A DNA stretch of 32,131 bases, from contig CAIZNP010000101.1 in NCBI GenBank assembly GCA_903934375.1, positions 1 to 32,131 on the forward strand. The letters run 5' to 3'. The position numbers were made by a program, and so were the translations under genes. Below are positions 28,147 through 30,510 of the stretch, piece by piece. Positions within the stretch are counted from its first letter, which is position 1. Every line of letters begins with the position of its first letter. Below the pieces are notes generated by a model, which searched no databases, was not told the origin of the DNA, and saw only the letters and a program-made list of their open reading frames with translations. Origin of the DNA: an uncultured Synechococcaceae cyanobacterium (GTDB lineage Bacteria > Cyanobacteriota > Cyanobacteriia > PCC-6307 > Cyanobiaceae).

Positions 28147-28948
28147 CCTGTGCGTCCCCATCACGGGTATCCACCGATCCTGACGCGTCACGTCGCAGGC
28201 GCCAGCGACCGTCCCCGGCCGGCAGCACCTGCCAGTCGCGCCAGTTCCATGGACCCTGGCGCCCCTCCAGGCGTTTGAGCGGCTGTTCCACCAGCTGGGC
28301 CAGCTCCGCCAGGCTGAGGGCATAGCCCCCGGCTGCAAGGCGATCCGCCAGCTCCAGGCGACTGAGGAGCTGCTGCAGCACCGCGGGTGCTGGCTCCGGC
28401 TCCGGGGCGGCAGCGGGAGCATCCACCATCAGACCGCCATAGTCGCCCCGGGCGAGCTGGGGGCGACCGCCTTTGGAGAAGGCCGCGGCGATCGCATCGC
28501 AGCGGTCGTTGTCCGGATCACCGCTGTGGCCCTTCACATAGGTGAACGGCAGATCCGGCAACCGGGCGGCATCAAGGGCCTCCCAGAGATCGCGGTTGAG
28601 CACCGGCGCGCCGGCGGCGGTGCGCCAGCCCTTGCGCTTCCAGCCCTGGATCCAGCGGCTATAGCCATCGATCAGATACTTCGAGTCGGTTCGGATCGTC
28701 AGATCCGGATGGCGGGGAAGGTCCCTGAGCTTCTGCAACAGGGTCAGCGCCGCCGAGAGTTCCATGCGGTTGTTGGTGGTGTTCGCCTCCATCGCACCGA
28801 ACTCCTGCACGGAGCCATCGTCAAAGCGCAGCAGACAGCCCCAGCCGCCGGGCCCGGGATTGCCGCTGCAGGCGCCGTCGCAGGCGGCAGCCACCACCCG
28901 CGGTGCTGTGGCGGGCTTGGACGTGGCGTTGGCGTGGTCTGCTGGCAC
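28139..28948 (-). CDS. rnhA: ribonuclease HI with a roughly 100-aa C-terminal extension
   Basis: GTG start; [84 protein letters not shown]; then an additional C-terminal domain. Confidence 0.92.
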
Positions 28949-29008
28949 TGGGCGATCTCCTGCCGATCCGGTACAACTCAGCTCCCAGGCAGCATCGAGG
29001 AGAGCCCC

Positions 29009-29764
29009 ATGCAGCGAACCTACAGCCGCTGGCCTGGCAGGTCCTGGCCCAACCTTGGCCTGGGGCTTGGCCTTGGCCTGGCCGCCGCCACAGCCGGCGC
29101 CGCGGGCCTCAGCCTGCCGACCGGCAGTGCCGCCATGGCCCTGTTCGGCAGCAGGCCTCTGGATGGCAGTCGCTTTGCGGTGCTGGCCAAGCCGGTGGGC
29201 CGCGGCGACTGGACCCTGCTCGTTCTGGAGCAGATCCAGCCCCAGCCACGCTGCTGGGAACAGCGTCCCGACGGGCTGATCGATCCGGCCCTGAACCGCT
29301 TTGATTTCACAGGCATCTGCAGCCGCTACCTCGACAGCAACGGCTACTCCCTGCGCATCGGCGAGGAGGACCTGGCCAGCCGCTACCGCCTGCGCCTGGA
29401 GCAACGCGGCACGAGCCTGGCCCTGCTGGCCATGAGCCCCGGCGAGCCCAGCCAGCTGCTGGTGGGGCAGGGCCTGGTGCCCCTGCGGGACCGAGACGGC
29501 TTCGTGCAGATCCGGCTGGAGCCGGGCTGGCAGCTGCAGCGACGGGTGTACGGCCAGCAGACCCTCAGCCACGTGTATTTCGCCAACGGCACGCCCCTGA
29601 ACCAGCTTCTCGGCCAGGAACGCGGCGGCGCGAATCTTGCAACAGCTCCCTGGCAGCAACCGGTCCAACTCACCAACCCGGGCCGCAGCCTTCCCGCAGG
29701 ACCGCATAAACCGATGCTGTCGCAGGGACCGATCGCCCTGCAGGTGATTCCGTTCCGGCCCTGA
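29009..29764 (+). CDS. DUF3747 domain-containing secreted protein
   Basis: Signal peptide; [89 protein letters not shown], which I recognise as the cyanobacterial DUF3747 type. Confidence 0.82.
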
Positions 29765-29820
29765 GGGAAGCCCGAGAGGTGTGCCAGCACTGTGCCAGTT
29801 GACGGGGCGACCGAGTGATC

Positions 29821-29850
29821 TTGCCGCTCCTTTCGCTTCCACCGTATGGT
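29821..29850 (+). promoter_or_regulatory. putative sigma70-type promoter for the sRNA
   Basis: TTGCCG (29821-29826), 18-bp spacer, TATGGT (29845-29850); predicted start about 29855-29858. Confidence 0.5.
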
Positions 29851-29856
29851 CTGGGC

Positions 29857-29952
29857 GTGTGAGGAGTGCGGGACACCACTTCCGGGGTCGAAACGAGGAC
29901 AGACTCCCGGAAGCGTTCCGGCTCAAGCCCTGCCTTCGGCGGGGCTTTTTTA
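29857..29952 (+). ncRNA. Yfr2/cyano-1-type small RNA candidate
   Basis: 5' GUGUGAGGAGU (29857-29867), perfect hairpin CUUCCGGG/CCCGGAAG (29879-29886/29906-29913) with 19-nt loop GUCGAAACGAGGACAGACU, then intrinsic terminator. No ORF explains the segment convincingly. Family assignment is from memory of the cyanobacterial Yfr RNAs. Confidence 0.62.
29926..29952 (+). terminator. Rho-independent terminator of the sRNA
   Basis: AGCCCTGCC-TTC-GGCGGGGCT (9 pairs including one G-U) followed by TTTTTTA. Confidence 0.88.
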
Positions 29953-30018
29953 TTGGAGCACCCATCGCTGAGGCCCGCCCGTGCTGTTGAAGTGGTGGCT
30001 TGGCAGCCTGGATAGACA

Positions 30019-30046
30019 CAAAAAACCGGCCCCCGAGGGGACCGGT
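30019..30046 (-). terminator. Rho-independent terminator downstream of rplL
   Basis: Reverse strand ACCGGTCCCC-TC-GGGGGCCGGT followed by TTTTTTG. Confidence 0.85.
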
Positions 30047-30126: not shown

Positions 30127-30510
30127 TCACTTGATGGAGACCTTGCCGCCGACCTCTTCCACAGACTTCTTGATGGCTTCGGCGTCAGCCTTGGAAATGC
30201 CTTCCTTGATCGGGCAGGGAGCGCCTTCGACCAGAGCCTTGGCTTCGCCCAGGCCGAGGCCGGTGGCCTCGCGGACAGCCTTCAGCACTTTGATCTTGGC
30301 AGCGGCATCGAAGCCATCAAGGATGGCGTCGAATTCGGTCTTCTCTTCGGCGGCCTCAGCGGCAGCTGCGGGTGCAGCAGCCATCACGACGCCAGCGGAC
30401 GCGGCGGCGGACACACCGAAGGCCTCTTCAATCTGCTTGACAAGCTCAGAGGCTTCCAGCAGCGAGAGGGTCTTCAGCTGTTCGAGAATGTTGTCGGTGG
30501 TAGCGGACAT
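30127..30510 (-). CDS. rplL: 50S ribosomal protein L7/L12
   Basis: [37 protein letters not shown]...[72 protein letters not shown]. Confidence 0.98.

Follow-up and report, generated by a model that had tools for sequence, protein, structure and literature searches.

A Yfr2 (Cyano-1) small RNA beside rplL in a Cyanobium-like picocyanobacterium is exactly complementary to the core of the genome's own Yfr1

We identified a small RNA of the Yfr2 (Cyano-1) family on the plus strand of a 32,131-nt contig (C101; hereafter the window, meaning the whole stretch of DNA analysed) from a cyanobacterial genome of 2.7 Mb. The best explanation as a whole, to which we assign a probability of about 0.9, is a Yfr2 small RNA with its own promoter, its own terminator, and a 5′ end that pairs with the core of the small RNA Yfr1. 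The rplL protein of the window shares 99% identity with its counterpart in Cyanobium sp. E1_MAG_00006, and thus the host is a Cyanobium-like picocyanobacterium. The RNA is a new member of a known family. The reading given in an earlier note on this DNA is correct and mostly already known; Yfr2–Yfr1 pairing has been described before, and the conserved rplL locus and upstream element are modest additions.

When the whole window was compared with all Rfam families (cmscan), Cyano-1/Yfr2 (RF01701) was the only match above threshold. It spans 29853–29922 (+) and model positions 1–69, full-length, at 44.4 bits (E = 1.1e-4), which exceeds the curated gathering score of 41 bits by only 3.4 bits. This Infernal/Rfam check had been proposed in the earlier note for what it called a Yfr2-like sRNA, and it bears out that identification; the genome's Yfr1 (RF01116) was matched as well. 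In a search of the host genome, the window copy was again the sole Cyano-1 match above threshold. A second match (C2:1028–1098; 16.8 bits, E = 4.6) was discarded as noise. The predicted transcript occupies 29857–29951 (+), about 95 nt, with the start placed at 29857 because of the position of the −10 box and the conserved 5′ motif. The −10 box and terminator, both predicted from the sequence, fit a transcript of ~90 nt with its own start site, and Yfr2–5 of MED4 are 89–95 nt long (PMC1242208). A small protein encoded by an overlapping 69-aa ORF (29781–29990) was also considered and rejected, as conservation tracks the RNA motifs and structure.

The main hairpin (29879–29913, +) is supported by the fold, the consensus fold, and covariation. 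The perfect 8-bp helix claimed in the earlier note is present (CTTCCGGG/CCCGGAAG at 29879–29886/29906–29913), and GUC/GAC also pairs inside it, leaving a 12-nt loop, GAAACGAGGACA (29890–29901), and one conserved bulged U at 29905. A 12-nt conserved loop on a long stem and a bulge at position −4 from the loop are features of the Yfr2 family (PMC2662882), and U 29905 is the fourth base after the loop. Below this hairpin, a lower stem pairs GGGAC (29870–29874) with GUUCC (29915–29919) on the plus strand; all five of its pairs show changes on both sides, and 75% of cells are paired. Across 52 picocyanobacterial copies, standard pairs make up 82% of the stem, against 67.6% in shuffles, and 106 cells show changes on both sides, against 36.9 for shuffles, none of 500 being as high; both measures drop when the two strands are offset by one to three columns, and these controls leave some effect of relatedness in the values. 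The loop-closing pair is C-G in 39 sequences and G-C in 13. The terminator hairpin with U6 that had been claimed is likewise in place as an intrinsic terminator at 29925–29951 (+), a 10-bp stem (AAGCCCTGCC-TTC-GGCGGGGCTT) followed by T6, and the aligned copies likewise continue into a hairpin and a T-run.

Like other members of the family (RF01701, including MED4 Yfr2–5 and Synechocystis Yfr2a–c), the window RNA combines an unpaired 5′ GUGUGAGGAGU, a long stem, a 12-nt GAAAC.AGG loop, a bulge at position 4 from the loop, a length of ~90–95 nt, and its own terminator. The window loop (GAAACGAGGACA) differs in being closed by C-G (GUC/GAC) rather than G-C (GUG/CAC). The earlier note had observed that this loop departs from GGAAACA, and suggested a divergent member. 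The departure is real, as the window loop has CGAAACGAGGACA and lacks the GGAAACA repeat of the MED4 type, but the suggested divergence did not hold up, as the loop is found in all 20 rplL-linked relatives of the genus and GTCGAAAC occurs in the primers for Synechocystis Yfr2b/c (PMC2662882). GGAAACA describes MED4 Yfr2–5 (PMC1242208), and it does not define the family, since the verified Synechocystis Yfr2b/c have TCGAAACAAGG and share the loop sequence GUCGAAAC (PMC2662882). The oddity of the loop is therefore explained by a G-to-C change that is compensated, constant in the rplL-linked copies, and present in the Synechocystis primers.

The 5′ motif of the RNA, GTGTGAGGAGT (29857–29867, +), includes the conserved 5′ stretch of Cyano-1 (GUGUGAGGA). 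The earlier note had recognized an exact 11-nt reverse complement of the Yfr1 core, and advised locating the genomic Yfr1. That gene was found (RF01116; 68.3 bits, E = 2e-12) between trxA-like and guaB-like ORFs, both named from sequence, and the guaB–trxA spacer is the usual position of yfr1 (PMC6778093). It bears the exact ACUCCUCACAC core, complementary to the window motif, at G000:C177:10874–10884 (G000 being the host genome). The complementarity is a family property and not peculiar to the window copy, since the Rfam RF01701 consensus itself starts uugUGUGUGAGGAGu. The motif is kept in 20 of 20 rplL-linked copies of the genus; ACTCCTCACACC was found in 25/25 genus genomes, and Cyano-1 in 14/14 of those of good quality. 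MED4 Yfr2 (GUGUGUAGGAG) pairs with Yfr1 via a bulge and a mismatch, whereas the window copy is a perfect complement. The Yfr1 core is fully unpaired in the predicted fold, as are the first 7 nt of the Yfr2 motif; the last bases (GAGU) fold into a weak lower stem. The computed cost of opening the Yfr2 5′ end is about 3.6 kcal/mol and the 11-bp hybrid yields −18.5, for a net energy of about −14.9 kcal/mol. The co-fold gain of Yfr2 with Yfr1 is −16.2, compared with −7.3 ± 3.4 for shuffles, and 1% of 300 shuffles were as good.

The Yfr1–Yfr2 interaction in Prochlorococcus that the earlier note mentioned was put forward in 2008, and experiments in MED4 supported it in 2019 (PMC6778093). In that work, MED4 Yfr2 captured Yfr1 and Yfr10 in a pull-down, was protected from RNase E when paired, and reversed the repression by Yfr1 of the PMM1121 (porin) 5′ UTR in a GFP rescue in E. 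coli (PMC6778093). The window Yfr2 likely acts in a similar way, with capture of Yfr1 and Yfr10, release of repression, and protection from RNase E. A Yfr2 that acts mainly via its loop on mRNAs, with Yfr1 pairing secondary, is possible though on balance improbable. The loop core GAAAC.AGG is invariant in all aligned copies, MED4 Yfr2 pulled down 302 mRNAs (PMC6778093), and co-occurrence of the two RNAs is imperfect, as several genomes have Cyano-1 and no Yfr1 match at the search sensitivity used (some Prochlorococcus without Yfr1 retain Yfr10; PMC6778093). However, TGAGG[AG]G stands at the 5′ end of all 77 rplL-type copies, for whose selection only the loop was used, and the frequent A-to-G variant still pairs with Yfr1 as G-U. 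The rescue in E. coli also speaks for the pairing with Yfr1.

The window Yfr2 probably faces two partners, Yfr1 and a Yfr10-like RNA. This is suggested by a weaker Yfr1-like match of 28.4 bits at G000:C332:21157–21212 (− strand), where AUUCCUCACACC precedes a terminator, and by four sister loci (L036, L037, L058, and L059) in which the same core precedes a Yfr2 paralog by 127–221 nt, resembling the Yfr10–Yfr2 arrangement in MED4 (PMC2518516). Yfr1- and Yfr10-type RNAs are predicted partners in that they bear the complementary core (ACUCCUCACAC and AUUCCUCACAC, respectively); they differ from Yfr2 in the opposite sense of the motif, and are different RNAs encoded at other loci. The C332 candidate (L188) has GGTTGCACCATTCCTCACACCACCC followed by a GC-rich terminator. 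At two further loci (L055 and L060), a Yfr1-like RNA (hairpin, ACTCCTCACACCCCCC, terminator) has its core at position 1423 on the strand opposite Yfr2; it is convergent to a Yfr2 paralog, making the partner RNAs neighbours.

Upstream of the RNA, the −10 box TATGGT lies at 29845–29850 (+), and relatives from 30 genera have an A/T-rich −10 at this position. The promoter claimed in the earlier note can be read in the window (TATGGT, TTGCCG at 29821–29826, and an 18-nt spacer), but its −35 box is probably not real, judging from the occurrence of TTG[AC]C there in only 3 of the 30 genera. When one locus per genus was compared, 25 of 30 genera had [AC]CAGT[TC] at a distance of 58–62 nt upstream of the base that precedes GTGTG; shuffled sequences gave a mean of 0.9 and at most 4 of 30. 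The promoter is therefore better described as a −10 box plus an upstream regulator site. The window copy of this hexamer (29795–29800) is inside the conserved element CCAGTTGACGGGGCGACC at about −60 (29795–29812, +), a candidate regulator site. Two MED4 Yfr2 homologs are under the GntR protein PMM1637 via the CGRE1 motif (PMC6778093). The host genome has a GntR gene (C331, 52.6 bits), and by analogy with MED4 its product may control Yfr2. The four paralogs in sister loci mentioned above have a perfect palindrome, ACTGGCAC.GTGCCAGT, roughly 20–40 nt upstream of the predicted start, which is possibly a regulator site; a related sequence, CACTGTGCCAGTTG, occurs in the window at 29788–29801.

The RNA gene sits between a plus-strand DUF-type ORF (28526–29764) and rplL (30127–30510, − strand), the convergent neighbour that marks a locus conserved in relatives. 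The 20 genus copies converge on rplL and are preceded by rnhA and the DUF-type ORF, the L045 contig being too short to include the upstream genes. The loop pattern GGGTCGAAACNAGGNNAGACTC was found in 91 of 151 family genomes, singly in all but one of them (reversed control, 0). Of the 42 loci that we inspected, 41 have a convergent rplL no more than about 550 nt away, and the remaining one has rnhA and the DUF-type ORF with no rplL hit in the stretch; as these loci were chosen by the loop pattern, they show where this loop type sits and not the Yfr2 copy number elsewhere. An rplL-linked copy is present in Synechococcus WH 5701, S. lacustris Tous, Synechococcus AG-670-A05, and Prochlorococcus AG-409-P01. 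The pattern scan detected no copy at most other Prochlorococcus rplL loci (L076, L082–L092) or in the filamentous cyanobacteria checked. The yfr2 genes have been described as being without fixed position (PMC1242208; PMC6778093), in contrast to the conserved rplL locus of the window copy, and a literature search for Yfr2 together with rplL found nothing.

That the sequence is a bare terminator or 3′ UTR of its neighbours, either the rplL operon or the upstream ORF, is very unlikely. The rplL operon converges on the RNA, which starts 93 nt past the stop of the upstream ORF with no obvious terminator between, and in Axmann 2005 a cluster found in MIT9313 and WH8102 (cluster 226) was set aside, without a test, as possibly a bidirectional terminator of rplKAJL. 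Against such a role, there is the Cyano-1 match, a T-run after the hairpin on the plus strand only, and a conserved upstream element and −10 box. The RNA is also retained at loci of the Prochlorococcus type, in which the upstream ORF was not found and rnhA is divergent upstream. Furthermore, rplL is followed by a terminator-like hairpin of its own (ACCGGTCCCCTCGGGGGCCGGTTTTTT; 30020–30046, − strand), so that Yfr2 and the rplL operon each end at a site of their own. Cluster 226 was not recognized as Yfr2 in 2005, but it lies at the end of the same operon as the window copy. Cluster 226 probably is, or contains, the rplL-linked Yfr2. Genome G071 holds a copy there (L180, 5′ end GTGAGGGGT) and is probably MIT9313, as its Yfr1 and Yfr2 positions agree with published coordinates.

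Taken alone, the motif would be weak evidence, because about 1.3 occurrences of any 11-mer are expected by chance on the two strands of 2.7 Mb. The 11-mer or its complement occurs at exactly two places genome-wide, and these are the window Yfr2 and the Yfr1 at C177. That the complementarity is due to chance, or purely to a GAGGAG (Shine-Dalgarno-like) resemblance, is extremely improbable given conservation of the motif in the genus and family, at the 5′ end of the RNA, and as part of the consensus of a known RNA family.

Returning to the reading as a Yfr1-pairing Yfr2, and by analogy with MED4, transcription of the window RNA would rely on a promoter and a terminator of its own. In the cell, its largely single-stranded 5′ end would base-pair with Yfr1 at the exposed ACUCCUCACAC core, and probably also with the Yfr10-like RNA bearing AUUCCUCACAC. 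The occupied core would keep these RNAs off their mRNA targets, and they in turn would shield Yfr2 from RNase E. The 12-nt loop, for its part, probably serves a different set of targets. We consider it an even bet that the Yfr2 family, which has been described as multi-copy and without a fixed place, includes an rplL-anchored, nearly always single-copy orthologous member with a C-G closed loop and the −60 element. This member would range from Cyanobium across marine Synechococcus to part of Prochlorococcus and be missing at most of the other Prochlorococcus rplL loci examined; the first screen probably dismissed it as a terminator, and it may represent the ancestral Yfr2 of picocyanobacteria. 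Yfr1 and Yfr2, which act on each other, belong to the small number of regulatory RNAs that nearly all cyanobacteria retain. Cyanobium-type genomes, with one detectable Yfr2 at a fixed locus and a perfect Yfr1 match, would offer a simpler test case than the multi-copy Prochlorococcus and marine Synechococcus, and the conserved upstream element provides a concrete site for finding the regulator of Yfr2.
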